From: Melieria omissa
Taxonomy: Eukaryota > Arthropoda > Insecta > Diptera > Ulidiidae
Assembly: GCA_963971225.1 (NCBI GenBank)
Contig: OZ020267.1
Span: 121,265,891-121,329,890, forward strand
Direction of reading: 5' to 3'
DNA length: 64,000 nt
Part shown: positions 10,488 to 46,150 of the stretch, piece after piece
Layout: the number at the start of each line of letters is the position of its first letter
Numbering within the stretch: the stretch's first letter is position 1
The notes under the pieces: generated by a model
Told to the model about the DNA's origin: nothing
The model's database searches: none
Seen by the model: the letters and a program-made list of their open reading frames with translations, nothing else
Position numbers and translations under genes: made by a program

Positions 10488-10931
10488 TTGCCTAAACTTT
10501 TTTTTGCTCCCTCCTCCTTATTTCTTTTCAACACATTTTCATTTAATTCACATTTCGAGTTCAGTTTTTACTGAATGGTCTTTCTTATGTATGTTTCTTC
10601 TTCTTTTTTTAGAACATTTTGCCTAAACTTTTTTTTGCTCCATCCTCCTCCTTATTTCTTTTCAACACATTTTCATTTAATTCACATTTCGAGTTCAGTT
10701 TTTACTGAATGGTCTTTCTTATGTATTTTTTTTCTTCTTATTTTCAACATTTTATCATCTACAACGATTTCATTTACGTATCAGCCCATAGCTTCATAAT
10801 ATGCTATATTAAGATATTGTATTACTGTTGTGAAAGATATAAGTTTTACATTTTTTAAGTCGTTTTAAGAAAATATCCCAGAACTAGAACGAAAAAAGCG
10901 TCAAATATGGTCCACGCAGTGTAGATAGAAT

Positions 10932-13018: not shown

Positions 13019-13780
13019 ATGTCGGAATCTGCTGTAATTGCTAATGCATCATCGCCGGTTGCTGCAGCGGGAGCTACGGCTGTTGCGGAGAAAAAGGTTG
13101 CTGCCAAGAAACCGGCATCGGCAAAATCAAAGAAACCCGCAGCTGCACCAACCCATCCGTCGACACAGCAAATGGTCGATGCATCGATTAAAAATTTGAA
13201 AGAGCGCGGTGGCTCTTCACTGCTGGCCATCAAGAAATATATTAGTGCAACATATAAATGCGATGCACAAAAATTGGCTCCGTTCATAAAGAGATATTTA
13301 AAGTCTTCGGTAGTCAGCGGTAAATTGATTCAAACTAAAGGCAAAGGTGCATCCGGATCGTTCAAGTTATCGGCAGCTGCAGCAAAACCGAAAAAAGTCG
13401 GCAGCAGTAAGCCAAAATCGTCATCTGTGGAAAAGGGTAAAGCAAAGAAGAAGAAGAGTGGAGCATTGGGAGCTAGCAGTGCAGCCAAGAAGAAATCTTC
13501 ATCGGCGATTGGCGCCAAGAAAACGAGCAGTGACAAGGCAGCTGTAAAGGTAAAGAAAGCAGCTGTGGCTACCAAAAAGACAGCCGAAAAAAAGAAGAGT
13601 GAAAAGGCAAAAGTGAAAAGTATCAAGAAGACTGGTACAGTTAAGGCGAAACCAGCAAAGGCAAAGCCAAGCGCCACCAAACCAAAAGCACCCAAGGTTA
13701 AAACATCTGCTGCCAAGCCAAAAAAGACTGCAACAGCGGCCAAGAAGCCAGTCGCTAAAAAAACGGCTGCCAAAAAGTAA
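13019..13780 (+). CDS. His1: Linker histone H1 (unit 2), broken 3' stem-loop
   Basis: 253 residues with Glu195, otherwise as the copy at 6153..6914. The coding region is intact, but the mRNA 3' stem-loop at 13834..13849 has lost 5 bp and can form only three of six stem pairs. Expression as a mature, non-polyadenylated H1 mRNA is therefore doubtful. Confidence 0.96.
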
Positions 13781-13833
13781 GGTGTCAGTAATGGGACATT
13801 ATCTATATATTTACATATATCTGAAATGATATA

Positions 13834-13849
13834 TAGCCTTTTCAGGGCT
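13834..13849 (+). terminator. Defective H1 stem-loop (unit 2)
   Basis: The sequence is TAGCCTTTTCAGGGCT instead of AGCCCTTTTCAGGGCT. A 5 bp deletion in the upstream arm leaves pairs T-A, C-G and C-G next to the loop, and the outer three positions mismatch (G-G, A-C, T-T). The loop and downstream purine element remain. Confidence 0.9.
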
Positions 13850-13931
13850 ACAAAATCAATATACAAAGAGAATCGGAATATTTTCAAACGCTAAATATAT
13901 TTTTAATAAATTGTTTAATTGCGACGCGCGA

Positions 13932-13982
13932 TTCCCGTCCGATCACAGCGTCGGGCGCGTTTAGTGGACCGCTTGGGAACAC
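13932..13982 (+). pseudogene. 5S rRNA relic (unit 3)
   Basis: Same 51 bp relic as at 205..255. Confidence 0.85.
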
Positions 13983-14137
13983 AATGGCGGTGGTTCTATT
14001 TGTTTTGCATATTACGATTAAGGAGCATAATAGGATATTTTTTAAAACAACATATAAAAATCTCTTTGTTTATATATTTTGTGGCCCTGAAAAGGGCCTT
14101 TTGTTCTATTAACGTAGATGTTGTAGATTGAAATTGC

Positions 14138-14509
14138 TTATTTGGAACTGGTGTATTTGGTGACGGCCTTAGTTCCCTCACTGACAGCGTGCTTCGCCAA
14201 TTCACCGGGCAACAGCAGACGAACGGCAGTCTGAATTTCGCGACTAGTGATTGTCGAACGCTTATTGTAGTGCGCCAGACGCGACGCTTCGGCAGCGATA
14301 CGCTCAAAGATGTCATTCACGAAACTGTTCATAATACTCATTGCCTTCGAAGAGATGCCAGTGTCCGGGTGGACTTGCTTCAACACTTTGTAAATGTAGA
14401 TAGCGTAGCTTTCCTTCCTCTTGCGCTTCTTCTTCTTGTCGTTTTTCGTAATGTTCTTTTGCGCCTTGCCGGCCTTTTTTGCCGCTTTACCACTCGTTTT
14501 AGGAGGCAT
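14138..14509 (-). CDS. His2B: Histone H2B (unit 3)
   Basis: Identical protein to the other copies. Stem-loop 14083..14098 on the minus strand. Divergent promoter 14510..14752. Confidence 0.98.
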
Positions 14510-14722
14510 TTTCACTTAAATTCACAAAACACTCAAAACACAATTATGATGACTATGAACGCCAATATACACACTTATCTACAATTTACTGAACGAGTTT
14601 TTCATGTTACATAAAGAAGGTGAGCATTTTTTCTCTACCTGACAATCATGAGCCCAACAAAACTATAAATACACAGCAGGCAGCTGTATCGTTAACATTT
14701 GTGTATAGTGTGTGACTAGTGA

Positions 14723-15127
<405 letters not shown>

Positions 15128-15801
15128 ACAATCGACTAATACAACAAATTACACAAACCGTCCTTTTCAGGACGACAAAATATTCGAACAAAGAGTTGAA
15201 AAATATGTTCAAACAAGAAATTATAAAAATATTTTGTCATGAAGTAAATTTTACAAAAGAAATGCTGTTGCTTGCATAGCCGAACATAGTCTCTGAGTAA
15301 ACTTTTCTATTTGTCTGCATTTCGCCATATATTAATATATATTGTGCCATATTGTAAAAGCTGTGCCATAAGGCAATCCTGCTCCTGTCAGCATACTCGC
15401 CGCGCCGCTACTCGTAAGTGTAGCAACGAGTAGCCGGCATAAGAAGGTAGTAGTAGAAGTGAAGCAATCGAGAACGGATCAAATAAAAGGCAGCGGCCAT
15501 ACAGCATTGTTAAATACATACATTGTTAAATAGTTCTAAGTTAGTTTAGTAGTTTCTTAATTTTAAATTGAAATTTATTTAGGGAAGCTGTACACACACA
15601 TATACATTAAAATACAAAGTACAGTACTTTTCGCTTAAAGCGAACTTCGAGAGACTTTGTTTAAAACGAAAAATAATCAAAATAGTTTATAAATCTTTCT
15701 GTAAATGTGTATAGTAAAATAATTCTTAAATCTTTTTGTAAATGTATTTTGTGGTCCTGAAAAGGACCGTTTTTCATTATTAATGTCGTCAATTTATGAC
15801 T

Positions 15802-16143
<342 letters not shown>

Positions 16144-16411
16144 TCACAAAGTACAAAACACAACTGCGAATACTACACCCATTTGCTTCAACTTATATTT
16201 ATACTAAACCGAGACGACGCTTGCAATGCATATTATCTACCTGTCCTCCTCTAACATATATGAGGGTTGTTTATAATGTTGAATTAGTGAAACGCTTTCG
16301 GATATTTAACTATAAAAGTGTTGTTTGGTACGTGCATATGGATTCATTAGCGTTCTCCTAGTGCTCAGTGTTAGTGTTGGTGTGAATAGAAGAAACAAGA
16401 AGAAGAAGTAA

Positions 16412-16831
<420 letters not shown>

Positions 16832-17211
16832 GTCAATTTTTAAACGGTCGACACTTTCAAAAATAGCAAACAAACAATCGGTCCTTTTCAGGACCACAAA
16901 TTTCTATACAAAAGAGATTATTGAAAACAATTTTAACTACTTTCGATATTATTATTAAGAAAATATAGTTGTTTTTTTTTTTTAGTTTTCATGCTAACAA
17001 ACATTGCAATTCACAACATAACATTTAATCAAAAAAACGTCGAAATATAAATTTTATTGCAAACATGCCAAAACATACATTGAAAGCGAATTATGCAAAT
17101 TTTCTGATTCAGAAAAATAATTCATCCATTTTGTTGAGAACATTCCCAAAAACAAAAAATATGCATTTGAATAGAAATATGATATGGAGGTGAATAGTCG
17201 AATAAGCATTC

Positions 17212-17331
17212 GCCAACGACCATACCACGCTGAATACATCGGTTCTCGTCCGATCACCGAAATTAAGCAGCGTCGGGCGCGGTTAGTACTTGGATGGGGG
17301 ACCGCTTGGGAACACCGCGTGTTGTTGGCAT
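17212..17331 (+). rRNA. 5SrRNA: 5S rRNA gene (unit 3), 8 bp upstream deletion
   Basis: The coding part is the same as the other 5S copies. Eight bases (GTACTGAT in units 1, 2 and 4) are missing about 33 bp upstream of the start, at 17179/17180. This could affect an upstream promoter element while leaving the internal control region intact. Confidence 0.95.
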
Positions 17332-17775
17332 TTGCCTAAACTTTTTTTTGCTCCCTCCTCCTTATTTCTTTTCAACACATTTTCATTTAATTCACATTTC
17401 GAGTTCAGTTTTTACTGAATGGTCTTTCTTATGTATGTTTCTTCTTCTTTTTTTAGAACATTTTGCCTAAACTTTTTTTTGCTCCATCCTCCTCCTTATT
17501 TCTTTTCAACACATTTTCATTTAATTCACATTTCGAGTTCAGTTTTTACTGAATGGTCTTTCTTATGTATTTTTTTTCTTCTTATTTTCAACATTTTATC
17601 ATCTACAACGATTTCATTTACGTATCAGCCCATAGCTTCATAATATGCTATATTAAGATATTGTATTACTGTTGTGAAAGATATAAGTTTTACATTTTTT
17701 AAGTCGTTTTAAGAAAATATCCCAGAACTAGAACGAAAAAAGCGTCAAATATGGTCCACGCAGTGTAGATAGAAT

Positions 17776-18695
17776 GGGAGCACCGTATAATGCAGACATA
17801 CAAAATGCAGACAAGACATATTGCAGACAAATTTTGTAAATGTAGACAGGACAAAATGCAGACAAGACAAAATACAGACAGGACAAAATGCAGACAAAAC
17901 AAAATGCAGACAAAACAAAATGCAGACAAGACAAAATGACGGCAAGACAAAACGCAGACAGGACAAAATGCAGACAAGACAAAAACTAAATCCAGAAACA
18001 TTAATTTTAATATCGGAATGAAACTGCGTTATTAATTTAGAACAAAAGTTAGTTTATTTATGAAGATAGTAAATTAAAATTATTAATAGTATTTACATTT
18101 TTTTTTTTAATGTATCCCAAAACTAAACTCCCATGAGGGTTATTTTTTGCAGTCCGGCCACCCAGGAAAAACTTATTGGCAAGAAAACTATGGATTTGAA
18201 CAAAAAATACTGTGCACACCTGACTGTTGCTTGATGTGGTGGTGACTCCCATGAGGCTTATAATTTTAGCGCCCGGCCGAAGGCCGGCCACTTGGGAAAA
18301 ACTTATTGCCAAGAAAACTATGGCTTTCGGGAAAACTGTATGCACCTCTGGGATTGCGAAAAAAAGCGCGAATTTTAAACTTTGAGCGAAATTTTAAACC
18401 TTGGGCCTCGATATCTCGAAAACGAAGCGAGATATCGAAAAATTGTATTCCTCATTTTCGACTTATTTTTGGTCAATGTATCTAAAGACACCCTCAAATG
18501 GCGGCGCCACGGAAACCGTAGTCGTGCCTTTTTTTGCATACAAAATCATGCACTGAATAAATATAGCTTCAATAATTGTTTATTGATAAAAAAAATGTGT
18601 CTGTCATTTGTCTCCATTTTTCTGTATTCTGTATTTTGTCCTGTCTGCGTTTGGTCTTGTCTGCATTACGTCTTTCTGCAATTCGTCATACACCC
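17776..18695. mobile_element. Foldback-like element (unit 3)
   Basis: Same 920 bp element between GATAGAAT copies. One private T-to-A change (TATAATTTTAGC near 18263) is shared with unit 7. Confidence 0.65.
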
Positions 18696-19862
18696 GATAG
18701 AATATATACAAAAACATGTACACATTGCAAAAACTCCATTTATTCAAGGGACAGCGAAATGGTCTGCAAGGAGTGTGCAAAATAAAAATGCTCAATGAAT
18801 CTTCGATGTTATTATTGCTTTTGAACCTTTTTAAACTTTTTAATACGTTTCTTAGTTTTAAAAACTTGAAGTTCTTACGAAAAAATACATATGTATGTAT
18901 AAATAAGCCACATTTTCACCTTTTGTATGGTTTCCGAAAAGACTTAATAATTTAAGCACATTTTTTTAAATCAATGAAATGTATTATATATAAACTTATT
19001 CTTTTCTTTTTTGTGTGCTATTATTTTTTGTTTTTAAATATGCATACATCGGTATTTAGAAACAATAAAAATACAAATACTCCATTTTATATGCCAACAA
19101 GTGAGCATAACATACATAAAATTCTTGTGGGAAGACAGTTGACGCATTTGACAAAGAAAATACTATGAAATTAATGATTTTAATAGAATATTACTTCCAG
19201 TAAATAGTTTTGAATATTTAAATTATATTGAAAATTAAATATAGATGATTTTGTATGCTAATTATAAAAATCGAACCGAGTTGAGCTAAGATATTCGATT
19301 TGCAAAACGTATACTTGGTAGACTTTCGGTAAGTTGAGAGCAATTGTAAAATATTTTGTTTAACTGTTGCATTCAATAAATGTGAATAAATTTCATTTAA
19401 ATACTATGTAAATTGTTCAAAATCATATATAAATGCAACTTTAACTATTTATTGAATGTATAAGTGGTAAAATGTTAAGTTTTTTCTATGAAATTTCATA
19501 ATAAATCAGGCAAAGTTTATGTTTGACTGCATTTAAAACTGTCATCATAACAAATATGAGGCAAATATATTAAAAATGCGAAAGATCAATATTTGGTAAA
19601 TATTAATGGGTGATTTGTTTGAATGGAAATGGAAAAGTAATGTTTTAAAAAATTAAAATTCTATTTGAAGATGACTATTAGAAAATGTTCACAACTACTG
19701 ACTGGTAAATTATTATCATATATCCCTTCTACATGAGTCTCACTTTTTCAAGGGACTTAAACTTGTGTTCTGTGAGTCACTGAATTTTATTGAATTTGAA
19801 TTGTGTTGCGTAGCGTTTTGTTACGAATTGAATTGGGAAAAAGTGTAAAGTGAAAAGGAGAA

Positions 19863-20624
19863 ATGTCGGAATCTGCTGTAATTGCTAATGCATCATCGCC
19901 GGTTGCTGCAGCGGGAGCTACGGCTGTTGCGGAGAAAAAGGTTGCTGCCAAGAAACCGGCATCGGCAAAATCAAAGAAACCCGCAGCTGCACCAACCCAT
20001 CCGTCGACACAGCAAATGGTCGATGCATCGATTAAAAATTTGAAAGAGCGCGGTGGCTCTTCACTGCTGGCCATCAAGAAATATATTAGTGCAACATATA
20101 AATGCGATGCACAAAAATTGGCTCCGTTCATAAAGAGATATTTAAAGTCTTCGGTAGTCAGCGGTAAATTGATTCAAACTAAAGGCAAAGGTGCATCCGG
20201 ATCGTTCAAGTTATCGGCAGCTGCAGCAAAACCGAAAAAAGTCGGCAGCAGTAAGCCAAAATCGTCATCTGTGGAAAAGGGTAAAGCAAAGAAGAAGAAG
20301 AGTGGAGCATTGGGAGCTAGCAGTGCAGCCAAGAAGAAATCTTCATCGGCGATTGGCGCCAAGAAAACGAGCAGTGACAAGGCAGCTGTAAAGGTAAAGA
20401 AAGCAGCTGTGGCTACCAAAAAGACAGCCGAAAAAAAGAAGAGTGAAAAGGCAAAAGTGAAAAGTATCAAGAAGACTGGTACAGTTAAGGCGAAACCAGC
20501 AAAGGCAAAGCCAAGCGCCACCAAACCAAAAGCACCCAAGGTTAAAACATCTGCTGCCAAGCCAAAAAAGACTGCAACAGCGGCCAAGAAGCCAGTCGCT
20601 AAAAAAACGGCTGCCAAAAAGTAA
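19863..20624 (+). CDS. His1: Linker histone H1 (unit 3)
   Basis: 253 residues, Glu195. The stem-loop is intact at 20683..20698. Confidence 0.97.
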
Positions 20625-20780
20625 GGTGTCAGTAATGGGACATTATCTATATATTTACATATATCTGAAATGATATATAAAAAGCCCTTTTCAGGGCTAC
20701 AAAATCAATATACAAAGAGAATCGGAATATTTTCAAACGCTAAATATATTTTTAATAAATTGTTTAATTGCGACGCGCGA

Positions 20781-20831
20781 TTCCCGTCCGATCACAGCGT
20801 CGGGCGCGTTTAGTGGACCGCTTGGGAACAC
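20781..20831 (+). pseudogene. 5S rRNA relic (unit 4)
   Basis: Same 51 bp relic as at 205..255. Confidence 0.85.
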
Positions 20832-20986
20832 AATGGCGGTGGTTCTATTTGTTTTGCATATTACGATTAAGGAGCATAATAGGATATTTTTTAAAACAAC
20901 ATATAAAAATCTCTTTGTTTATATATTTTGTGGCCCTGAAAAGGGCCTTTTGTTCTATTAACGTAGATGTTGTAGATTGAAATTGC

Positions 20987-21358
20987 TTATTTGGAACTGG
21001 TGTATTTGGTGACGGCCTTAGTTCCCTCACTGACAGCGTGCTTCGCCAATTCACCGGGCAACAGCAGACGAACGGCAGTCTGAATTTCGCGACTAGTGAT
21101 TGTCGAACGCTTATTGTAGTGCGCCAGACGCGACGCTTCGGCAGCGATACGCTCAAAGATGTCATTCACGAAACTGTTCATAATACTCATTGCCTTCGAA
21201 GAGATGCCAGTGTCCGGGTGGACTTGCTTCAACACTTTGTAAATGTAGATAGCGTAGCTTTCCTTCCTCTTGCGCTTCTTCTTCTTGTCGTTTTTCGTAA
21301 TGTTCTTTTGCGCCTTGCCGGCCTTTTTTGCCGCTTTACCACTCGTTTTAGGAGGCAT
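20987..21358 (-). CDS. His2B: Histone H2B (unit 4)
   Basis: Identical protein. Stem-loop 20932..20947 on the minus strand. Divergent promoter 21359..21601. Confidence 0.98.
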
Positions 21359-21571
21359 TTTCACTTAAATTCACAAAACACTCAAAACACAATTATGATG
21401 ACTATGAACGCCAATATACACACTTATCTACAATTTACTGAACGAGTTTTTCATGTTACATAAAGAAGGTGAGCATTTTTTCTCTACCTGACAATCATGA
21501 GCCCAACAAAACTATAAATACACAGCAGGCAGCTGTATCGTTAACATTTGTGTATAGTGTGTGACTAGTGA

Positions 21572-21976
<405 letters not shown>

Positions 21977-22650
21977 ACAATCGACTAATACAACAAATTA
22001 CACAAACCGTCCTTTTCAGGACGACAAAATATTCGAACAAAGAGTTGAAAAATATGTTCAAACAAGAAATTATAAAAATATTTTGTCATGAAGTAAATTT
22101 TACAAAAGAAATGCTGTTGCTTGCATAGCCGAACATAGTCTCTGAGTAAACTTTTCTATTTGTCTGCATTTCGCCATATATTAATATATATTGTGCCATA
22201 TTGTAAAAGCTGTGCCATAAGGCAATCCTGCTCCTGTCAGCATACTCGCCGCGCCGCTACTCGTAAGTGTAGCAACGAGTAGCCGGCATAAGAAGGTAGT
22301 AGTAGAAGTGAAGCAATCGAGAACGGATCAAATAAAAGGCAGCGGCCATACAGCATTGTTAAATACATACATTGTTAAATAGTTCTAAGTTAGTTTAGTA
22401 GTTTCTTAATTTTAAATTGAAATTTATTTAGGGAAGCTGTACACACACATATACATTAAAATACAAAGTACAGTACTTTTCGCTTAAAGCGAACTTCGAG
22501 AGACTTTGTTTAAAACGAAAAATAATCAAAATAGTTTATAAATCTTTCTGTAAATGTGTATAGTAAAATAATTCTTAAATCTTTTTGTAAATGTATTTTG
22601 TGGTCCTGAAAAGGACCGTTTTTCATTATTAATGTCGTCAATTTATGAAT

Positions 22651-22992
<342 letters not shown>

Positions 22993-23260
22993 TCACAAAG
23001 TACAAAACACAACTGCGAATACTACACCCATTTGCTTCAACTTATATTTATACTAAACCGAGACGACGCTTGCAATGCATATTATCTACCTGTCCTCCTC
23101 TAACATATATGAGGGTTGTTTATAATGTTGAATTAGTGAAACGCTTTCGGATATTTAACTATAAAAGTGTTGTTTGGTACGTGCATATGGATTCATTAGC
23201 GTTCTCCTAGTGCTCAGTGTTAGTGTTGGTGTGAATAGAAGAAACAAGAAGAAGAAGTAA

Positions 23261-23680
<420 letters not shown>

Positions 23681-24068
23681 GTCAATTTTTAAACGGTCGA
23701 CACTTTCAAAAATAGCAAACAAACAATCGGTCCTTTTCAGGACCACAAATTTCTATACAAAAGAGATTATTGAAAACAATTTTAACTACTTTCGATATTA
23801 TTATTAAGAAAATATAGTTGTTTTTTTTTTTTAGTTTTCATGCTAACAAACATTGCAATTCACAACATAACATTTAATCAAAAAAACGTCGAAATATAAA
23901 TTTTATTGCAAACATGCCAAAACATACATTGAAAGCGAATTATGCAAATTTTCTGATTCAGAAAAATAATTCATCCATTTTGTTGAGAACATTCCCAAAA
24001 ACAAAAAATATGCATTTGAATAGAAATGTACTGATATGATATGGAGGTGAATAGTCGAATAAGCATTC

Positions 24069-24188
24069 GCCAACGACCATACCACGCTGAATACATCGGT
24101 TCTCGTCCGATCACCGAAATTAAGCAGCGTCGGGCGCGGTTAGTACTTGGATGGGGGACCGCTTGGGAACACCGCGTGTTGTTGGCAT
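24069..24188 (+). rRNA. 5SrRNA: 5S rRNA gene (unit 4)
   Basis: Same 120-nt sequence, with the full upstream flank. Confidence 0.95.
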
Positions 24189-24632
24189 TTGCCTAAACTT
24201 TTTTTTGCTCCCTCCTCCTTATTTCTTTTCAACACATTTTCATTTAATTCACATTTCGAGTTCAGTTTTTACTGAATGGTCTTTCTTATGTATGTTTCTT
24301 CTTCTTTTTTTAGAACATTTTGCCTAAACTTTTTTTTGCTCCATCCTCCTCCTTATTTCTTTTCAACACATTTTCATTTAATTCACATTTCGAGTTCAGT
24401 TTTTACTGAATGGTCTTTCTTATGTATTTTTTTTCTTCTTATTTTCAACATTTTATCATCTACAACGATTTCATTTACGTATCAGCCCATAGCTTCATAA
24501 TATGCTATATTAAGATATTGTATTACTGTTGTGAAAGATATAAGTTTTACATTTTTTAAGTCGTTTTAAGAAAATATCCCAGAACTAGAACGAAAAAAGC
24601 GTCAAATATGGTCCACGCAGTGTAGATAGAAT

Positions 24633-25552
24633 GGGAGCACCGTATAATGCAGACATACAAAATGCAGACAAGACATATTGCAGACAAATTTTGTAAATGT
24701 AGACAGGACAAAATGCAGACAAGACAAAATACAGACAGGACAAAATGCAGACAAAACAAAATGCAGACAAAACAAAATGCAGACAAGACAAAATGACGGC
24801 AAGACAAAACGCAGACAGGACAAAATGCAGACAAGACAAAAACTAAATCCAGAAACATTAATTTTAATATCGGAATGAAACTGCGTTATTAATTTAGAAC
24901 AAAAGTTAGTTTATTTATGAAGATAGTAAATTAAAATTATTAATAGTATTTACATTTTTTTTTTTAATGTATCCCAAAACTAAACTCCCATGAGGGTTAT
25001 TTTTTGCAGTCCGGCCACCCAGGAAAAACTTATTGGCAAGAAAACTATGGATTTGAACAAAAAATACTGTGCACACCTGACTGTTGCTTGATGTGGTGGT
25101 GACTCCCATGAGGCTTATATTTTTAGCGCCCGGCCGAAGGCCGGCCACTTGGGAAAAACTTATTGCCAAGAAAACTATGGCTTTCGGGAAAACTGTATGC
25201 ACCTCTGGGATTGCGAAAAAAAGCGCGAATTTTAAACTTTGAGCGAAATTTTAAACCTTGGGCCTCGATATCTCGAAAACGAAGCGAGATATCGAAAAAT
25301 TGTATTCCTCATTTTCGACTTATTTTTGGTCAATGTATCTAAAGACACCCTCAAATGGCGGCGCCACGGAAACCGTAGTCGTGCCTTTTTTTGCATACAA
25401 AATCATGCACTGAATAAATATAGCTTCAATAATTGTTTATTGATAAAAAAAATGTGTCTGTCATTTGTCTCCATTTTTCTGTATTCTGTATTTTGTCCTG
25501 TCTGCGTTTGGTCTTGTCTGCATTACGTCTTTCTGCAATTCGTCATACACCC
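24633..25552. mobile_element. Foldback-like element (unit 4)
   Basis: Same 920 bp element between GATAGAAT copies. Confidence 0.65.
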
Positions 25553-26719
25553 GATAGAATATATACAAAAACATGTACACATTGCAAAAACTCCATTTAT
25601 TCAAGGGACAGCGAAATGGTCTGCAAGGAGTGTGCAAAATAAAAATGCTCAATGAATCTTCGATGTTATTATTGCTTTTGAACCTTTTTAAACTTTTTAA
25701 TACGTTTCTTAGTTTTAAAAACTTGAAGTTCTTACGAAAAAATACATATGTATGTATAAATAAGCCACATTTTCACCTTTTGTATGGTTTCCGAAAAGAC
25801 TTAATAATTTAAGCACATTTTTTTAAATCAATGAAATGTATTATATATAAACTTATTCTTTTCTTTTTTGTGTGCTATTATTTTTTGTTTTTAAATATGC
25901 ATACATCGGTATTTAGAAACAATAAAAATACAAATACTCCATTTTATATGCCAACAAGTGAGCATAACATACATAAAATTCTTGTGGGAAGACAGTTGAC
26001 GCATTTGACAAAGAAAATACTATGAAATTAATGATTTTAATAGAATATTACTTCCAGTAAATAGTTTTGAATATTTAAATTATATTGAAAATTAAATATA
26101 GATGATTTTGTATGCTAATTATAAAAATCGAACCGAGTTGAGCTAAGATATTCGATTTGCAAAACGTATACTTGGTAGACTTTCGGTAAGTTGAGAGCAA
26201 TTGTAAAATATTTTGTTTAACTGTTGCATTCAATAAATGTGAATAAATTTCATTTAAATACTATGTAAATTGTTCAAAATCATATATAAATGCAACTTTA
26301 ACTATTTATTGAATGTATAAGTGGTAAAATGTTAAGTTTTTTCTATGAAATTTCATAATAAATCAGGCAAAGTTTATGTTTGACTGCATTTAAAACTGTC
26401 ATCATAACAAATATGAGGCAAATATATTAAAAATGCGAAAGATCAATATTTGGTAAATATTAATGGGTGATTTGTTTGAATGGAAATGGAAAAGTAATGT
26501 TTTAAAAAATTAAAATTCTATTTGAAGATGACTATTAGAAAATGTTCACAACTACTGACTGGTAAATTATTATCATATATCCCTTCTACATGAGTCTCAC
26601 TTTTTCAAGGGACTTAAACTTGTGTTCTGTGAGTCACTGAATTTTATTGAATTTGAATTGTGTTGCGTAGCGTTTTGTTACGAATTGAATTGGGAAAAAG
26701 TGTAAAGTGAAAAGGAGAA

Positions 26720-27484
26720 ATGTCGGAATCTGCTGTAATTGCTAATGCATCATCGCCGGTTGCTGCAGCGGGAGCTACGGCTGTTGCGGAGAAAAAGGTT
26801 GCTGCCAAGAAACCGGCATCGGCAAAATCAAAGAAACCCGCAGCTGCACCAACCCATCCGTCGACACAGCAAATGGTCGATGCATCGATTAAAAATTTGA
26901 AAGAGCGCGGTGGCTCTTCACTGCTGGCCATCAAGAAATATATTAGTGCAACATATAAATGCGATGCACAAAAATTGGCTCCGTTCATAAAGAGATATTT
27001 AAAGTCTTCGGTAGTCAGCGGTAAATTGATTCAAACTAAAGGCAAAGGTGCATCCGGATCGTTCAAGTTATCGGCAGCTGCAGCAAAACCGAAAAAAGTC
27101 GGCAGCAGTAAGCCAAAATCGTCATCTGTGGAAAAGGGTAAAGCAAAGAAGAAGAAGAAGAGTGGAGCATTGGGAGCTAGCAGTGCAGCCAAGAAGAAAT
27201 CTTCATCGGCGATTGGCGCCAAGAAAACGAGCAGTGACAAGGCAGCTGTAAAGGTAAAGAAAGCAGCTGTGGCTACCAAAAAGACAGCCGAAAAAAAGAA
27301 GAGTGAAAAGGCAAAAGTGAAAAGTATCAAGAAGACTGGTACAGTTAAGGCGAAACCAGCAAAGGCAAAGCCAAGCGCCACCAAACCAAAAGCACCCAAG
27401 GTTAAAACATCTGCTGCCAAGCCAAAAAAGACTGCAACAGCGGCCAAGAAGCCAGTCGCTAAAAAAACGGCTGCCAAAAAGTAA
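26720..27484 (+). CDS. His1: Linker histone H1, 254-residue form (unit 4)
   Basis: One extra AAG codon lengthens the lysine run at residues 143-147 (KAKKKKKSG) in the C-terminal tail. This is a typical slippage change in a (AAG)n tract and is tolerated in this disordered region. Glu195. The stem-loop is intact at 27543..27558. Confidence 0.97.
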
Positions 27485-27640
27485 GGTGTCAGTAATGGGA
27501 CATTATCTATATATTTACATATATCTGAAATGATATATAAAAAGCCCTTTTCAGGGCTACAAAATCAATATACAAAGAGAATCGGAATATTTTCAAACGC
27601 TAAATATATTTTTAATAAATTGTTTAATTGCGACGCGCGA

Positions 27641-27691
27641 TTCCCGTCCGATCACAGCGTCGGGCGCGTTTAGTGGACCGCTTGGGAACAC
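27641..27691 (+). pseudogene. 5S rRNA relic (unit 5)
   Basis: Same 51 bp relic as at 205..255. Confidence 0.85.
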
Positions 27692-27846
27692 AATGGCGGT
27701 GGTTCTATTTGTTTTGCATATTACGATTAAGGAGCATAATAGGATATTTTTTAAAACAACATATAAAAATCTCTTTGTTTATATATTTTGTGGCCCTGAA
27801 AAGGGCCTTTTGTTCTATTAACGTAGATGTTGTAGATTGAAATTGC

Positions 27847-28218
27847 TTATTTGGAACTGGTGTATTTGGTGACGGCCTTAGTTCCCTCACTGACAGCGTG
27901 CTTCGCCAATTCACCGGGCAACAGCAGACGAACGGCAGTCTGAATTTCGCGACTAGTGATTGTCGAACGCTTATTGTAGTGCGCCAGACGCGACGCTTCG
28001 GCAGCGATACGCTCAAAGATGTCATTCACGAAACTGTTCATAATACTCATTGCCTTCGAAGAGATGCCAGTGTCCGGGTGGACTTGCTTCAACACTTTGT
28101 AAATGTAGATAGCGTAGCTTTCCTTCCTCTTGCGCTTCTTCTTCTTGTCGTTTTTCGTAATGTTCTTTTGCGCCTTGCCGGCCTTTTTTGCCGCTTTACC
28201 ACTCGTTTTAGGAGGCAT
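27847..28218 (-). CDS. His2B: Histone H2B (unit 5)
   Basis: Identical protein. Stem-loop 27792..27807 on the minus strand. Its own promoter (28219 to about 28300) is untouched by the retrotransposon. The element, transcribed away from H2B, now takes the place of H2A as divergent partner. Confidence 0.98.
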
Positions 28219-28404
28219 TTTCACTTAAATTCACAAAACACTCAAAACACAATTATGATGACTATGAACGCCAATATACACACTTATCTACAATTTACTG
28301 AACGAGTTTTTCATGTTACATAAAGAAGGTGAGCATTTTTTCTCTACCTGACAATCATGAGCCCAACAAAACTATAAATACACAGCAGGCAGCTGTATCG
28401 TTAA
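28219..28404. promoter_or_regulatory. H2B promoter plus orphaned H2A TATA box (unit 5)
   Basis: Corresponds to 783..968 of unit 1. The H2A TATAAAT is at 28373..28379. The H2A leader that should follow has been displaced to 33304 by the insertion. The TATA box now faces the first bases of the retrotransposon. Confidence 0.85.
28393..28404 (+). repeat. Target-site duplication, left copy
   Basis: CTGTATCGTTAA, identical to 33292..33303. The empty site is present once in units 1-4 and 6-8 (957..968 in unit 1). Confidence 0.95.
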
Positions 28405-28438
28405 TCATTCATTCAGTGATTCGCAATTGAGACGGTTC
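28405..28438 (+). promoter_or_regulatory. Retrotransposon 5' end: initiator and downstream promoter element
   Basis: The element begins TCATTC (28405..28410), a match to the insect initiator TCAKTY with A at 28407. GGTTC at 28434..28438 lies at +28 and fits the downstream promoter element RGWYV. Jockey-type elements use such TATA-less internal promoters at +1. The H2A TATA box at 28373 is 34 bp upstream of the A, almost the same spacing as in the native H2A gene (33 bp). Confidence 0.7.
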
Positions 28439-28615
28439 GTTTTTTGATTGAAGTGTCATTGATTGAGAAAAGACTTTTCGCTATTTAAACTCGGTCGTGC
28501 GCGATTGCGTAAGATCGTGCTACCAATTTTGAAGAAAAAAGAAACAATAAGAATAAGTAACATCAAACTTTTGCCGTCTGTGGACCAAAGCGCCTGCTCA
28601 AGGCTAAAGAATAAA

Positions 28616-30037
28616 ATGAGTTTCAAGGATGACAGCAATCCGATGAACATCTATGAAGACCTCAGCTTAGAAAGTGACTGCGAGACCAAAGGCACTGCAA
28701 AGGTGAAAAAGAAACGTAAGAGACAAGACGTCTCCTCCGATGGTTCGAGTACCAAAACCTCGAAACTCATTGACAAAATTAAAGAGCTCACAAAGGAAAT
28801 GAGCTCGCTGAAGGCGGAAATAAAACTACTCAAACAAGAACGAGAAATTTTGCAAAACAACAACCAAATGTTAACTAACAACGACGCTGCTATGGACCAA
28901 TTCCCGGCACTACCGAGTGATGCAGGACGAATACCGAAAATGCCCGTTAAGCCAGCAATGAAATTGAAGACCCCTAACCCGAAGAAGGAAGCTAGTAAGC
29001 CGCCACCTATCTTAGTATGCTACAATGTAGACCAAAAAATGCTTAACTTTAAGTTAGGTATCTTTTTAAAACATAAAAACTTTGCTGGTAAGCAAATCAA
29101 TAAGAATGTAGTTCACATTAGCACCTACACTTTGGAGGACTACACTAAGACTAAGAATTTTCTGATAAACAACTCTATTAAATTTTACACTTTCACTCCC
29201 CAAGAGGAAAAGCCATACACTCTGCTCATCAAGAAACTTCCATCCTCATATGAGGAAGAGGAAGTTATTAATTATATCATTGATTTAAAACTAAATGTAA
29301 ATGTACTTAAAATTAAAAAAATCGGTAATAAGTTCCTCATACAGCTATCCAAAGAGTCGGATATTGCTGAATTTAGGAAAATAAATTACATCCTCAATTG
29401 CAAAATTGAGTTTGCGGATTATAAGTCAAATTTCCCTATACAGTGCAAAAATTGCCAAAGGTTTGGACACGTTGCCAGTAATTGCAACATGCCTTACAGA
29501 TGCGTGAAATGTTTAGACTCTCACGGTCCCAAAGAATGCAAAGTGCCTCCAAAGGAGCTAAATACTGAGGAAATTGCGGTCGTTGATCCTCTTACTGGGA
29601 AATTAAACAAGCGGTTAGGTCTCCCAGTAAAATGTGTTAACTGCAACTTAGAGGGTCATACGGCTAATGCCAAAATATGCCCCAAGAGATTAGAGCTAAT
29701 AAGTAAGTTTAACCAACAAAAAAAGCCATCACTACCCCCACCCCCTCCGCCTTTGGCTTATATCCCTACAACCAGGACAAACAAGTCTTATTCTGAGGCC
29801 TTGAAAGCAAATAGTCAAGCTAATACTTCAAACTATCCCAAAGCTAGAACCACCCAAAGCACAGACTCAACATTCAACATGATCAGCAATGATTGCGAGA
29901 GGTTGCTAGGGCGAGATTTCTTTACTTGCCTTAATAAAGTAAAGGAATTCTCCACATACTATAATGCTCTCGTCAACGACGAAGACAAATCCAAGGCACT
30001 ATTTAAACTTTTCATAGACCTTCGCATTGACACCTAA
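28616..30037 (+). CDS. Retrotransposon ORF1, Gag-like nucleic-acid-binding protein
   Basis: 473 residues from the first ATG of the element; no ATG occurs in the 5' UTR. The frame is open further upstream from 28463 without an ATG. Features: a basic stretch VKKKRKRQ, a predicted coiled coil at about 49-86 (Leu/Ile/Lys/Glu heptads), and a PRE_C2HC-like region at about 199-269. Zinc knuckles lie at 277-290 (CX2CX4HX4C), 296-308 (CX2CX3HX4C) and 340-355 (CX2CX4HX6C), followed by a polyproline run at about 374-379. Such proteins package the element RNA. ORF1 ends in TAA at 30035..30037, inside the ORF2 open frame. Confidence 0.92.
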   Translation: MSFKDDSNPMNIYEDLSLESDCETKGTAKVKKKRKRQDVSSDGSSTKTSKLIDKIKELTKEMSSLKAEIKLLKQEREILQNNNQMLTNNDAAMDQFPALPSDAGRIPKMPVKPAMKLKTPNPKKEASKPPPILVCYNVDQKMLNFKLGIFLKHKNFAGKQINKNVVHISTYTLEDYTKTKNFLINNSIKFYTFTPQEEKPYTLLIKKLPSSYEEEEVINYIIDLKLNVNVLKIKKIGNKFLIQLSKESDIAEFRKINYILNCKIEFADYKSNFPIQCKNCQRFGHVASNCNMPYRCVKCLDSHGPKECKVPPKELNTEEIAVVDPLTGKLNKRLGLPVKCVNCNLEGHTANAKICPKRLELISKFNQQKKPSLPPPPPPLAYIPTTRTNKSYSEALKANSQANTSNYPKARTTQSTDSTFNMISNDCERLLGRDFFTCLNKVKEFSTYYNALVNDEDKSKALFKLFIDLRIDT

Positions 30038-32996
30038 GAATTTAAAATGTTTCTTCATAAATGTTTGTTCACTGGTTAGTAAGAGAAAGAGACACTCCTT
30101 CAACCTGTTTTTGAAACATCATAAGCCAGACATTGTTTTAATTGCAGAGCATAAATTGAATCACAGACACAAGCTGTCGTTCACTAATTATGAACTCATA
30201 AGGGATGATCGTACCTCTGGCAGAGGTGGTGGTACAGCAATCTGTATCAAAGACTCCTTCGTTTATCAGAAAGTCACATGCAACACTTGTGTAATTGAAA
30301 ATACCACCATCACAATTAATCTCAGCAACAACACAACAATAGCATTCATCTCAGCTTATAACAAACCTTCTAACACCCTTACAGAATCTGATTTAAACAC
30401 CTTAATCAGCTCCTCTAATACAGAGCAAATAGTCCTGGGTGGAGATTTTAACGCTAGACACCGCAATTGGGGAGACACGGTCTGCAATAGAAATGGGAAT
30501 ATTTTGTCTGAATGGCTTTTAAAAACCCCCTCCATGCAAATCAATCCAACTAAAAATCCAACGAGGAACAATTCATATTTAGACCTTTTCATCACCTCCT
30601 TACCAATTTGTACAAACTACCACACAGACTTCCTGAATACCCTCAGAACTTTTGACTTTGACTCCGATCATGACGCAGTTGAACTTCTAATAGTAACCAG
30701 TGATTTTCTACGAAAGTCACCGGAAACAACTCTAGATTGGAATAAAATTAATATAAAGTTGTTCAACAGCGTACTATATGAAAACCTTAATAGCCATGTC
30801 TTACCCAACAATAGAGTAGCATCTATAACTGAAATAGATAACTGTATTTCCTATATAAATCAATCTTTCCAAACTGCTATCGAAGCTGCTGTACCCAAAG
30901 TAAAAATTCAAAGAAAAGGTCAAATTAACCTCCCACAAAATATCTTGCATTATATCCAGGAAAAAAAGAGGCTACGTAGAGCGGCATATAGATGCGTCGA
31001 CCCGGACCGGAAAAACACCTTAAAAGCAATTATACGCAACATTGAAAAAATCGTCCAGGAGCTAATTCAGCTACACGAAGAAAAATACTGGGACAACTTC
31101 TTCAAAAAGATTAGAATGAATAATCAGACCTATAAGAAAATCAAAAACCTAAGTGGAACAAACAGCAAAATCGAATTGCCCACCATCGTGGATGACAATG
31201 GGAACACTCACACTGAAAATTTTCACAAAATAAATGTATTGGCTGATCGTTTTGAGAAAGTTCATTTAAGAGATCAAGATATGCCCAACCAGCCTCATGA
31301 TAATCTAGTCCGTAGCTCAATATCCGTTTTAAGAAACAACGTCCCAATCATTTCCTTTGATAATGAAATCACTGCGGACGGCGAATCTGATAAGTTGACA
31401 AACCATGCTCCCGACATCGTAGAAAATTACGCACATCTCACCACGTCAGAAGATATTGCCTTCGGTATCTATTTCACTAACAATAAAAAAAGTTATGGCG
31501 ACGATAGGATCCCGAACTTTCTACTAAGAAAAACTTCTGCTTTCTTTTGCGACTTCCTTGCAATTCTATTCAATCAGTCCTACAACATTGGCTATTTTCC
31601 TGAATCATGGAAATGTGCCAAAATTATCCCAGTCTTAAAACCAAAGTCAGATCCGAATTTAGCCAATAACTACAGACCAATTTCCCTGTTGTCTAATATT
31701 AGTAAATTATTTGAGAGGATTCTTCTGGGAAAACTTAAAACGCATATCGTGGAAAGTAAGATCTTAAAAGACAATCAATTTGGTTTTAAAACTCTTCACT
31801 CTACCAACCACGCCCTAACCGTGCTTTCTGACTTCATTACCACTAACTTAAACAAACGCCAAGCCACCATAGCAGTGGCATTAGATCTTGAAAAAGCTTT
31901 TGATACAGTTTGGATTGAAGGAATTATATACAAAATGTACAACACTTTCCAGTTTGACAAGCACATCTGTAGATTTCTCCTAAACTACTTAACAGATCGC
32001 TCATTCTATGTAACCCACAAGGACGAAAATTCCATAATAAAACCAATTGCGGCAGGTGTCCCCCAAGGATCCATTCTTGGCCCTATCCTATATAACATCT
32101 ACCTAGCTGACATACAGAACCCAGAACCCGAATCCAATAAACAAATAATCATATATGCTGACGACATTCTTATTCTTGGATCCAAACCTAGAATTTCAAT
32201 AATGAACAAAGAGATTAATCAATACCTCTCCGAGTTGTCCCCTTACTTTGAGAAGTGGAAACTAAAACTGAACACTGCCAAAAGCGAATGCGTCTTATTT
32301 ACAGGAGTTAAAAAGTACCTATACCCCAATGCCAGAAAATTCTCTCCTAACATTATGTTCAACCAATCTAGAATAGCCAACAAGGAACAAATTAAATACT
32401 TAGGTGTCGTTTTGCACAAATCTTTCAAGTTCTACCGGCACATGGACTACATTCTCTCTAAAGCCAAAAATTGTTTCCATGCTTATTATGGGATACTGAG
32501 GAGAGCTAAGAGCCTGAAAATGCGCATTAAACTAAATTGCTACAAACAACTCATTAGGCCAATTCTTACGTATGCCTTCCCCATATGGTTTGATATATCT
32601 TCGCACCAAATGGAAAGGTTACGCACGTTTGAACGAAAGATTTTACGCATCTGCTCCGGCACCACAACAACTTGGGTCAATGGCACATACAAATGCATAT
32701 CAAACTACAGACTTTATAAAAAATGCAAAACGGAAAGAATCGACTGTCACTTAGTAAAGGCAGCGGTAAGATTCCTAGATAATTTAGGAAGACTGGACAA
32801 TAATCTAGTCAAAAAATACCTACTAAAGGAACCAAATATACCTTTCCCATTTCAAGATAAATTCCTATCACCTATCCATCTGCGAATTTTGTTAAGAAAC
32901 AATCAGGTCTTCCGACAGGAAAAGCTTTTGTTCTACCACAGGCGATTCCGCACATTTAATATCAATGATCCAATTTACTGTACTCATCAATTCTGA
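30018..32996 (+). CDS. Retrotransposon ORF2, endonuclease-reverse transcriptase
   Basis: The frame is open from after a TAG at 30015..30017 to TGA at 32994..32996 (992 codons). Endonuclease domain: IAEHKL with the catalytic Glu at about 44, GGDFNARH at about 141-148 and SDHDAV at about 216-221. Reverse transcriptase: NNYRPISLLS, AFDTVW, GVPQGSILGPILYN and YADD at 713-716 (32154..32165). The C-terminal part has the jockey-type YLGVVL and ILTYAFPIW segments and no RNase H domain. The protein cuts target DNA and reverse-transcribes the RNA from the nick. There is no ATG for the first ~170 codons. ORF2 is in the +1 frame relative to ORF1 and overlaps it by 20 nt, so its translation must use a frameshift, re-initiation or a non-AUG start such as TTG at 30027. 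Confidence 0.93.
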   Translation, partial: TFALTPKNLKCFFINVCSLVSKRKRHSFNLFLKHHKPDIVLIAEHKLNHRHKLSFTNYELIRDDRTSGRGGGTAICIKDSFVYQKVTCNTCVIENTTITINLSNNTTIAFISAYNKPSNTLTESDLNTLISSSNTEQIVLGGDFNARHRNWGDTVCNRNGNILSEWLLKTPSMQINPTKNPTRNNSYLDLFITSLPICTNYHTDFLNTLRTFDFDSDHDAVELLIVTSDFLRKSPETTLDWNKINIKLFNSVLYENLNSHVLPNNRVASITEIDNCISYINQSFQTAIEAAVPKVKIQRKGQINLPQNILHYIQEKKRLRRAAYRCVDPDRKNTLKAIIRNIEKIVQELIQLHEEKYWDNFFKKIRMNNQTYKKIKNLSGTNSKIELPTIVDDNGNTHTENFHKINVLADRFEKVHLRDQDMPNQPHDNLVRSSISVLRNNVPIISFDNEITADGESDKLTNHAPDIVENYAHLTTSEDIAFGIYFTNNKKSYGDDRIPNFLLRKTSAFFCDFLAILFNQSYNIGYFPESWKCAKIIPVLKPKSDPNLANNYRPISLLSNISKLFERILLGKLKTHIVESKILKDNQFGFKTLHSTNHALTVLSDFITTNLNKRQATIAVALDLEKAFDTVWIEGIIYKMYNTFQFDKHICRFLLNYLTDRSFYVTHKDENSIIKPIAAGVPQGSILGPILYNIYLADIQNPEPESNKQIIIYADDILILGSKPRISIMNKEINQYLSELSPYFEKWKLKLNTAKSECVLFTGVKKYLYPNARKFSPNIMFNQSRIANKEQIKYLGVVLHKSFKFYRHMDYILSKAKNCFHAYYGILRRAKSLKMRIKLNCYKQLIRPILTYAFPIWFDISSHQMERLRTFERKILRICSGTTTTWVNGTYKCISNYRLYKKCKTERIDCHLVKAAVRFLDNLGRLDNNLVKKYLLKEPNIPFPFQDKFLSPIHLRILLRNNQVFRQEKLLFYHRRFRTFNINDPIYCTHQF

Positions 32997-33291
32997 TGTG
33001 TACTCCTCCATGTGTACAAAGTGTATAGTGTATATAGTGTTACTTAGTTTAAGTTAGAATAAGCTAATATAAACAAAATGAAAATGTGATTCCCTTTTTT
33101 ACATGCCCTTTTTAGGGAAATACTACAATGTAACAGATCTCAAATAAACAAACATAATGTGATATTTCACTACTTGAATGTAAACACTCCTAGATAAATA
33201 TTTTATGTGCTAGGAAATCATTAATGTACTTAATGTTAACTAGATTTAGTCTTACTTATGTACCAATGAAATAATGGGCAATAAATATCAT
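32997..33291 (+). other. Retrotransposon 3' UTR
   Basis: Contains a CCCT-TTTT-AGGG hairpin at 33106..33117, resembling a short histone stem-loop, and AATAAA at 33280..33285. The element ends ...AATAAATATCAT with no poly(A) or simple tail before the right target duplication. Confidence 0.75.
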
Positions 33292-33303
33292 CTGTATCGT
33301 TAA
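33292..33303 (+). repeat. Target-site duplication, right copy
   Basis: CTGTATCGTTAA, followed directly by CATTTGTGTATAG of the H2A leader. Confidence 0.95.
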
Positions 33304-33330: not shown

Positions 33331-33735
<405 letters not shown>

Positions 33736-40592: not shown

Positions 40593-41266
40593 ACAATCGA
40601 CTAATACAACAAATTACACAAACCGTCCTTTTCAGGACGACAAAATATTCGAACAAAGAGTTGAAAAATATGTTCAAACAAGAAATTATAAAAATATTTT
40701 GTCATGAAGTAAATTTTACAAAAGAAATGCTGTTGCTTGCATAGCCGAACATAGTCTCTGAGTAAACTTTTCTATTTGTCTGCATTTCGCCATATATTAA
40801 TATATATTGTGCCATATTGTAAAAGCTGTGCCATAAGGCAATCCTGCTCCTGTCAGCATACTCGCCGCGCCGCTACTCGTAAGTGTAGCAACGAGTAGCC
40901 GGCATAAGAAGGTAGTAGTAGAAGTGAAGCAATCGAGAACGGATCAAATAAAAGGCAGCGGCCATACAGCATTGTTAAATACATACATTGTTAAATAGTT
41001 CTAAGTTAGTTTAGTAGTTTCTTAATTTTAAATTGAAATTTATTTAGGGAAGCTGTACACACACATATACATTAAAATACAAAGTACAGTACTTTTCGCT
41101 TAAAGCGAACTTCGAGAGACTTTGTTTAAAACGAAAAATAATCAAAATAGTTTATAAATCTTTCTGTAAATGTGTATAGTAAAATAATTCTTAAATCTTT
41201 TTGTAAATGTATTTTGTGGTCCTGAAAAGGACCGTTTTTCATTATTAATGTCGTCAATTTATGACT

Positions 41267-41608
<342 letters not shown>

Positions 41609-41876
41609 TCACAAAGTACAAAACACAACTGCGAATACTACACCCATTTGCTTCAACTTATATTTATACTAAACCGAGACGACGCTTGCAATGCATATTA
41701 TCTACCTGTCCTCCTCTAACATATATGAGGGTTGTTTATAATGTTGAATTAGTGAAACGCTTTCGGATATTTAACTATAAAAGTGTTGTTTGGTACGTGC
41801 ATATGGATTCATTAGCGTTCTCCTAGTGCTCAGTGTTAGTGTTGGTGTGAATAGAAGAAACAAGAAGAAGAAGTAA

Positions 41877-42296
<420 letters not shown>

Positions 42297-42684
42297 GTCA
42301 ATTTTTAAACGGTCGACACTTTCAAAAATAGCAAACAAACAATCGGTCCTTTTCAGGACCACAAATTTCTATACAAAAGAGATTATTGAAAACAATTTTA
42401 ACTACTTTCGATATTATTATTAAGAAAATATAGTTGTTTTTTTTTTTTAGTTTTCATGCTAACAAACATTGCAATTCACAACATAACATTTAATCAAAAA
42501 AACGTCGAAATATAAATTTTATTGCAAACATGCCAAAACATACATTGAAAGCGAATTATGCAAATTTTCTGATTCAGAAAAATAATTCATCCATTTTGTT
42601 GAGAACATTCCCAAAAACAAAAAATATGCATTTGAATAGAAATGTACTGATATGATATGGAGGTGAATAGTCGAATAAGCATTC

Positions 42685-42804
42685 GCCAACGACCATACCA
42701 CGCTGAATACATCGGTTCTCGTCCGATCACCGAAATTAAGCAGCGTCGGGCGCGGTTAGTACTTGGATGGGGGACCGCTTGGGAACACCGCGTGTTGTTG
42801 GCAT
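42685..42804 (+). rRNA. 5SrRNA: 5S rRNA gene (unit 6)
   Basis: Same 120-nt sequence, with the full upstream flank. Confidence 0.95.
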
Positions 42805-43248
42805 TTGCCTAAACTTTTTTTTGCTCCCTCCTCCTTATTTCTTTTCAACACATTTTCATTTAATTCACATTTCGAGTTCAGTTTTTACTGAATGGTCTTT
42901 CTTATGTATGTTTCTTCTTCTTTTTTTAGAACATTTTGCCTAAACTTTTTTTTGCTCCATCCTCCTCCTTATTTCTTTTCAACACATTTTCATTTAATTC
43001 ACATTTCGAGTTCAGTTTTTACTGAATGGTCTTTCTTATGTATTTTTTTTCTTCTTATTTTCAACATTTTATCATCTACAACGATTTCATTTACGTATCA
43101 GCCCATAGCTTCATAATATGCTATATTAAGATATTGTATTACTGTTGTGAAAGATATAAGTTTTACATTTTTTAAGTCGTTTTAAGAAAATATCCCAGAA
43201 CTAGAACGAAAAAAGCGTCAAATATGGTCCACGCAGTGTAGATAGAAT

Positions 43249-44168
43249 GGGAGCACCGTATAATGCAGACATACAAAATGCAGACAAGACATATTGCAGA
43301 CAAATTTTGTAAATGTAGACAGGACAAAATGCAGACAAGACAAAATACAGACAGGACAAAATGCAGACAAAACAAAATGCAGACAAAACAAAATGCAGAC
43401 AAGACAAAATGACGGCAAGACAAAACGCAGACAGGACAAAATGCAGACAAGACAAAAACTAAATCCAGAAACATTAATTTTAATATCGGAATGAAACTGC
43501 GTTATTAATTTAGAACAAAAGTTAGTTTATTTATGAAGATAGTAAATTAAAATTATTAATAGTATTTACATTTTTTTTTTTAATGTATCCCAAAACTAAA
43601 CTCCCATGAGGGTTATTTTTTGCAGTCCGGCCACCCAGGAAAAACTTATTGGCAAGAAAACTATGGATTTGAACAAAAAATACTGTGCACACCTGACTGT
43701 TGCTTGATGTGGTGGTGACTCCCATGAGGCTTATATTTTTAGCGCCCGGCCGAAGGCCGGCCACTTGGGAAAAACTTATTGCCAAGAAAACTATGGCTTT
43801 CGGGAAAACTGTATGCACCTCTGGGATTGCGAAAAAAAGCGCGAATTTTAAACTTTGAGCGAAATTTTAAACCTTGGGCCTCGATATCTCGAAAACGAAG
43901 CGAGATATCGAAAAATTGTATTCCTCATTTTCGACTTATTTTTGGTCAATGTATCTAAAGACACCCTCAAATGGCGGCGCCACGGAAACCGTAGTCGTGC
44001 CTTTTTTTGCATACAAAATCATGCACTGAATAAATATAGCTTCAATAATTGTTTATTGATAAAAAAAATGTGTCTGTCATTTGTCTCCATTTTTCTGTAT
44101 TCTGTATTTTGTCCTGTCTGCGTTTGGTCTTGTCTGCATTACGTCTTTCTGCAATTCGTCATACACCC
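43249..44168. mobile_element. Foldback-like element (unit 6)
   Basis: Same 920 bp element between GATAGAAT copies. Confidence 0.65.
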
Positions 44169-46097: not shown

Positions 46098-46150
46098 GGT
46101 GTCAGTAATGGGACATTATCTATATATTTACATATATCTGAAATGATATA

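Follow-up and report, generated by a model that had tools for sequence, protein, structure and literature searches.

A jockey-type retrotransposon that recurs at histone gene starts and at the TATA-box starts of LTRs in Melieria omissa

A non-LTR retrotransposon of the jockey type lies in sense direction at the start of a histone H2A gene of the fly Melieria omissa, and further insertions of its family occupy the starts of other histone genes and the TATA-box starts of two LTR families. The element is best read as a promoter-targeting retrotransposon whose main home is the histone genes. Several promoters, H2A among them, were entered at the same spacing from the TATA box, and this recurrent distance, the exact insertion sites, the target duplications and the orientation are all directly observed. 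We consider it probable that the insertions represent a small, young family that prefers RNA polymerase II (Pol II) starts, and plausible that the host promoter can transcribe the H2A copy described here. The analysis covered a window of 64,000 bp (C1:121265891-121329890) and a genome search of 490 Mb in 164 contigs; copies are designated by contig and position in Mb or, for C131, C145 and C156, which are short separate contigs, by the contig alone.

The occupied H2A unit

The window is filled by a tandem histone array, the genes of which were named by their reading frames, with H1, H2B, H2A, H4 and H3 in each unit and a unit length of 6849-6866 bp. The H1 protein has its best match, a partial one, in Bactrocera (69% over 78% for B. 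tryoni and 76% over 54% for B. oleae). Nine H2A TATA boxes are present in the window, seven in empty units and two in occupied units, and at least 25 empty H2A units are present in the genome (40 of 91 candidates scored). At C1:121345160-121361060, two consecutive H2A spacings measure 7950 bp rather than the usual ~6860 bp, which indicates about 1.1 kb of additional sequence in those histone units. The occupied unit and its duplicate comprise the following features.

28373..28379, + strand: H2A TATA box TATAAAT, now 5′ of the element
28393..28404, + strand: 5′ copy of the 12-bp target-site duplication CTGTATCGTTAA, identified by comparison with the seven empty units of the window
28405..33291, + strand: full-length jockey-type non-LTR retrotransposon, 4887 bp, ending GGCAATAAATATCAT with no poly(A) tail
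28405..28410, + strand: initiator-like TCATTC, with A 28407 as the inferred +1
28434..28438, + strand: DPE-like GGTTC at +28 to +32, the same in 7/7 other copies compared
28616..30037, + strand: ORF1, 473 amino acids, with CCHC zinc knuckles
30018..32996, + strand: ORF2, 992 open codons, APE-type endonuclease and reverse transcriptase, with no ATG near its start
33292..33303, + strand: 3′ copy of the target-site duplication
33361..33735, + strand: H2A coding sequence, separated from its own TATA box by the 4.9-kb element
60690..60696, + strand: TATA box of the duplicated occupied H2A unit
60722..64000, + strand: second element copy, cut by the window end, within an exact repeat 32,317 bp away

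The 5′ copy of the duplication starts 20 bp past the T of the TATA box, at the inferred bottom-strand nick, and the element itself starts 32 bp past the first T of the box. The original prediction held that the element's own initiator had come to lie at a promoter-like distance from the histone TATA box, and this is correct to the base, with 34 bp from the TATA T to A 28407 of the element and 33 bp to the initiator A of an empty H2A gene. The two internal promoter motifs that it placed at +1 and +28 are also present (the second as GGTTC, a form of RGWYV); the chance frequency among window positions is 1.6% for RGWYV and 0.15% for TCAKTY. The first T of the element (28405) is absent from the other copies, and the ATTCATTC start is kept in six of seven of them, including copies with no upstream TATA box.

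The same arrangement had been reported at 60690 as a recurrence. It is present there, but it is not independent, being carried by an exact repeat in which 8949..31683 equals 41266..64000 at 22,735 of 22,735 bases, the comparison running as far as the window does. The offset of 32,317 bp corresponds to about four histone units plus the element, and the two element copies are identical over all 3277 comparable bases. The second copy therefore reflects a single insertion duplicated, very recently, together with its neighbourhood, or else an assembly repeat.

Coding capacity and relatives

The element had been described as intact, and both ORF1 and ORF2 are indeed open, but the first Met of ORF2 occurs only at residue 173. 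ORF2 matches the Pfam families Exo_endo_phos_2 (1.9e-18) and RVT_1 (3.8e-38), and ORF1 matches zf-CCHC_6 with 22.7 bits (cut-off of 22), the match with zf-CCHC falling under its cut-off. At its start (30018..30061), ORF2 uses the +1 frame with respect to ORF1, whose last 20 bases it overlaps and whose stop reads ACC TAA G. Its start region (121 bases) is identical in six of nine other copies and has small changes in three, one of them a 2-base gap, and all nine copies are without the ATG of the relatives, five of eight of which have a Met just before the same ORF2 motif (P0001, P0002, P0003, P0006 and P0012; predicted starts). ORF2 is probably expressed by reinitiation without an AUG or by a +1 shift.

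The nearest named protein is a Rhagoletis zephyria ORF2 described as jockey-like (50% over 81% of the query), and the label jockey-type rests on similarity to this protein so named. The closest full-length relatives of the element show 50-56% identity, and one viral_contigs scan yielded no relatives with flanking DNA. No poly(A) tail is present at the element 3′ end in any of the 23 3′-region loci examined; 20 of the 23 end AATAAATATCAT, L055 and L061 stop a few bases short and L059 ends earlier.

Insertion sites across the genome

The census used the last 242 bases of the element as query, and scoring of 22/22 candidates gave 23 rows representing 22 loci. Collapsing the duplicates (the window pair; C131 and C145, 100% identical over 2945 bp; and the H3 pair, 99.97%) left 19 insertions, comprising four at H2A (the window copy, C145, C156 and C1:120.68), one at H2B (C1:121.62), one at H3 (C1:121.22 with its duplicate), two at LTR-A (C2:114.0 and C1:120.66), two at LTR-B (C4:36.9 and C4:11.58) and nine elsewhere; the three duplicate copies and two 5′-only remnants (C3:54.91 and C2:49.69) were left out. 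A second search, with the end of ORF2 (150 of 1935 candidates scored), agrees with this census where copies keep the ORF2 end. Histone gene starts take 6/19 insertions and the TATA-box starts of the two LTR families 4/19, and all ten of these promoter insertions are in the sense direction. Nine of the 13 events at 99-100% identity are at histone or LTR promoters.

The expectation that the family would recur at H2A starts was borne out by independent insertions at the same H2A base elsewhere in the genome. Three different 5′ junctions occur at this base, with TC in the window copy, 15 extra bases in C145 and a 5′ truncation in C156, and the 3′ end of C156 also differs from that of the window copy. 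In LTR-A, two insertions share one site but not their 5′ ends, and the same is true of LTR-B. The C1:120.68 copy begins at element base 506 with non-histone sequence upstream, and is placed at H2A by its 3′ flank only.

LTR-A and LTR-B are called LTRs from what lies downstream of the TATA region, a poly(A) signal and, after it in one copy of each, a gag-like frame (by eye). An assignment of LTR-A as an hsp70 promoter was dropped, given the gag-like frame after the poly(A) signal in one copy. The LTR-A at C1:120.66 lies within a histone H3-H1 spacer, ~15 kb from the H2A copy C1:120.68, which brings the insertions in or at histone units to 7/19. Closeness to the histone locus could have contributed to this placement or to the targeting. 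Apart from C1:120.66, no occupied site was seen in histone units away from gene starts.

These two copies belong to a second histone block (C1:120.66-120.68 Mb; L018, L050 and L045), ~0.5 Mb from the main array, in which an H3-H1 spacer with the occupied LTR-A is accompanied by an open-frame H2A gene with another copy. The insertion at H3 is an old one; its 5′ part has diverged and the neighbouring H3 frame contains stops. It is found twice, at C1:121216737.. (L021) and C1:121519364.. (L020), 302,627 bp apart, and this pair flanks the listed H2A units on both sides. About 0.7 kb from the old fragment C1:47.89, positions 306..694 of L059 are 90-96% similar to the H3-H1 spacer, and part of the histone spacer may therefore be a dispersed repeat.

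Distance from the TATA box to the nick

The distance from the T of TATAAA to the nick is 20 bp at H2A, H3 and LTR-A and 21 bp at LTR-B, with a doubt of 1-2 bp at H3, LTR-A and LTR-B owing to short microhomologies; for the second LTR-A and LTR-B copies it was read by eye. In 8/14 resolvable insertions TATAAA stands 19-22 bp before the inferred first nick, the statistic leaving aside five of the 19 in which the nick is unplaced (C4:13.12, C1:155.46, C1:67.34 and C1:47.89) or the 5′ side is missing (C1:120.68). Counted by distinct target, the box is present at this distance in 4/10 and absent in 6/10, compared with 112 of 26,012 control positions (0.43%) in the sequences flanking these loci; for four in ten targets at a rate of 0.5%, the binomial chance is ~1e-7. 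The target duplications at the TATA targets are 11-14 bp long, which places the second cut 31-34 bp past the T, where transcription should start, the host start positions being inferred from the TATA distance.

H2B is hit in its own start region, where the best box, GATAAG, has two mismatches to TATAAA. At the other five resolvable targets no TATAAA within one mismatch was found at 19-22 bp, a match that 4.3% of control positions reach. It follows from these six targets that a TATA box is not required, even though TATA starts are strongly preferred by the family. Two of the five targets other than H2B, C2:31.97 and C4:52.14, appear to lie inside the ORFs of other retroelements (by eye), and the nick at C4:52.14 is approximate because it has no clear duplication. 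A related family in the same genome, with 35% identity at the ORF2 C-terminus and a poly(A) end in 3/3 copies, has no TATAAA at 19-22 bp at any of the three sites examined.

Copy ages, 5′ ends and 3′ tails

In their final 1802 bases, the copies of the window, C145, C156 and H2B show a difference of 0-1 base; in the first 1.7 kb, the identity between C145 and the window copy is 99.5%. Groups of related copies mix targets, with C1:120.68 (H2A) grouping with C1:120.66 (LTR-A), C2:114.0 (LTR-A) with C1:63.84, and C2:31.97 with C4:11.58 (LTR-B).

The A equivalent to 28407, which the original prediction took as +1, is the commonest 5′ end, in five of 12 other ends (L011-L022). One of the remaining ends lies one base before this position and one lies four bases after it; homology begins at element base 22 in two (C1:120.66 and C4:8.12, with another leader sequence) and at element base 62 in three, which are older copies. 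A non-homologous G precedes the start in five of eight ends, window included, and fits a copied cap, as would be left by a capped RNA starting at the 28407 A. The extra 5′ bases in C145 (L011 1216..1230) and C4:11.58 (L015) both contain GAACAGAA near their end, and the 15-base stretch of C145 occurs at one place in the genome, C145 itself.

In most copies the element end AATATCAT is followed by a few bases and a second ATATCAT before the target begins; this second ATATCAT is missing in the window and H3 copies. Where the ATATCAT is doubled (L042-L052, L056-L058 and L062), 2-6 donor- or target-like bases lie between the two, as if reverse transcription had slipped at initiation. The tail bases are CTGTA in the H2B, C2:31.97 and C4:8.12 copies and CTGTAT in the H3 copy, identical to the start of the H2A flank, and CGTTA(A), CGTA, CTGA, ATCA or CA in other copies; given this variety, the element has no fixed tail of its own. 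The CTGTA(T) tails tentatively suggest, by a short match, read-through RNA from H2A-resident copies. C2:31.97 is weak as a donor case because its target itself begins CTGT.

Proposed mechanism and alternatives

In the mechanism that we propose, the endonuclease would nick the template strand ~20 bp past the TATA T, and the cut in the opposite strand would lie 11-14 bp beyond this nick, at about position -2/-1. Target-primed reverse transcription from the nick would then leave the element 5′ end at or near the host start, in the sense direction. With the host TATA box 34 bp upstream of +1, the H2A promoter would be able to transcribe the window copy from its first base, and such transcription is plausible given the geometry and the youth of the histone copies. 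At a Pol II promoter, the melted DNA has its edges at about -12 and -1. The cuts, ~12 and 1 bp before the start, match these edges, which favours guidance by the initiation complex, and the nick may be guided by a TBP/TFIIB complex or by the melted start region. The H2A promoter may drive the element, and H2A-resident copies may have been the donors of other copies. The fullest version of this proposal is one that we regard as evenly poised between right and wrong: the Pol II initiation complex would guide the nicks at both melted edges, full-length copies would thus begin at host starts and could be driven by host TATA boxes, the element would thrive in the histone array, active in S phase, and the short 3′ tails, AATATCAT with a few bases of donor flank and often doubled, would record the parent promoter.

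The chief rival to guidance by the initiation complex is sequence recognition, in which the endonuclease would read the sequence or shape of the H2A start, histone-specific as R1 is for rDNA, with the LTRs as look-alike off-targets and no part for the transcription machinery. H2A is the most frequent target (4/19), GGCAG^C at the nick is common to H2A and LTR-A, and C2:31.97 shares CTGT, all of which would be expected of such an enzyme. We nevertheless regard it as unlikely, because the H2B, H3 and LTR-B nicks have no visible motif in common with H2A (by eye) and the TATA distance is constant within ~1 bp across four targets. It is conceivable, though doubtful, that the position is targeted and yet transcription proceeds everywhere from the element's own internal initiator and DPE, the H2A TATA box adding little. 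The conservation of GGTTC and of the start, seen also in copies with no upstream TATA box, is in keeping with an internal promoter; on the other side, the window copy and C4:36.9 both have a host TATA box 34 bp before the element +1, and H2A-flank bases at other sites suggest productive H2A-resident copies. Against the proposed mechanism, the extra 5′ bases in C145 (15) and C4:11.58 (~48) put the element +1 of these copies off the TATA distance.

Two further explanations would dispense with targeting. Random insertion with survival only in multicopy sequences (the histone array and LTR retroelements) could mimic it, in that the promoter targets found are all multicopy and 9/19 insertions lie elsewhere. 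Survival gives no account of why one base within a 6.9-kb unit was hit repeatedly, or of why unrelated sequences show the same TATA distance, and the sole off-start insertion in a histone unit, C1:120.66, is at the TATA start of a spacer LTR; this explanation is very improbable. Hardly credible is a single chance entry of an ordinary jockey element into H2A, with unequal exchange and gene conversion in the array giving rise to the other copies. Spread of this kind does hold for the two window copies and for C131 and C145, and the C156 5′ end could also result from a deletion in a copy like that of the window, since TC is found in both, but the differing H2A 5′ junctions and 3′ tails exclude one event, and the H2B, H3 and LTR insertions, with flanks of their own, contradict it.

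Implications and comparison with known systems

Non-LTR elements need a promoter of their own or a landing site behind one. If the proposed targeting is true, insertion at Pol II start sites solves this need by choice of target, and landing just downstream of a host TATA box could let the element borrow strong host promoters. Such a family would allow a test of whether target-primed reverse transcription can be steered by the open promoter complex or by a general transcription factor, which bears on tools for precise gene insertion. Histone genes would be the habitat of the family, with consequences for histone dosage where an occupied H2A unit is cut off from its TATA box.

In common with the jockey elements of flies, the element has two ORFs, an ORF1 with CCHC knuckles, an ORF2 with APE and reverse transcriptase domains and an initiator/DPE-like start; it differs from them in the absence of poly(A), in an ORF2 without an ATG and in recurrent insertion at promoters. 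HeT-A and TART are jockey-related, and the promoter used by HeT-A lies immediately 5′ of the copy. That promoter belongs to a neighbouring element, whereas here it would be that of a host gene. Among the matches listed from the open-licence literature (titles and abstract starts), there was no non-LTR element specific for histone or Pol II starts. LTR-type transposable element insertions are present in the D. melanogaster histone locus, and transposable element insertions serve as landmarks, according to the excerpted text of PMC12400953, and an excerpt of PMC6380962 mentions insertions in histone repeats in general terms.

In habitat, the nearest systems are R1/R2, Utopia and Keno, which likewise have a home in multicopy genes and some copies elsewhere. 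The targets named in the excerpted part of PMC4640811 are rRNA genes, snRNA genes and microsatellites, and histone genes are not mentioned in that part. The targets identified for the present element are histone genes and LTRs, and it differs from those families, as excerpted, in using the start of a protein-coding histone gene together with non-homologous promoters.

In mechanism, the nearest system is TRE5-A of Dictyostelium, a non-LTR element that inserts upstream of tRNA genes and the ORF1 protein of which interacts with TBP, Brf1 and Bdp1 (PMC5911963 and PMC5006619, in the parts excerpted). As far as those excerpts describe it, TRE5-A is likewise an APE-type non-LTR element that keeps a fixed distance from the promoter, probably through the transcription apparatus; the corresponding distance here is 20-21 bp in four of ten distinct targets. 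TRE5-A differs, on the same excerpts, in its Pol III targets, its position 44-54 bp upstream and its opposite orientation, whereas the present element is found at Pol II starts with base precision and in the sense direction, its identified targets being Pol II genes and LTR promoters. If the proposed targeting is true, the family would be the Pol II counterpart of the Pol III-targeting TRE5-A.
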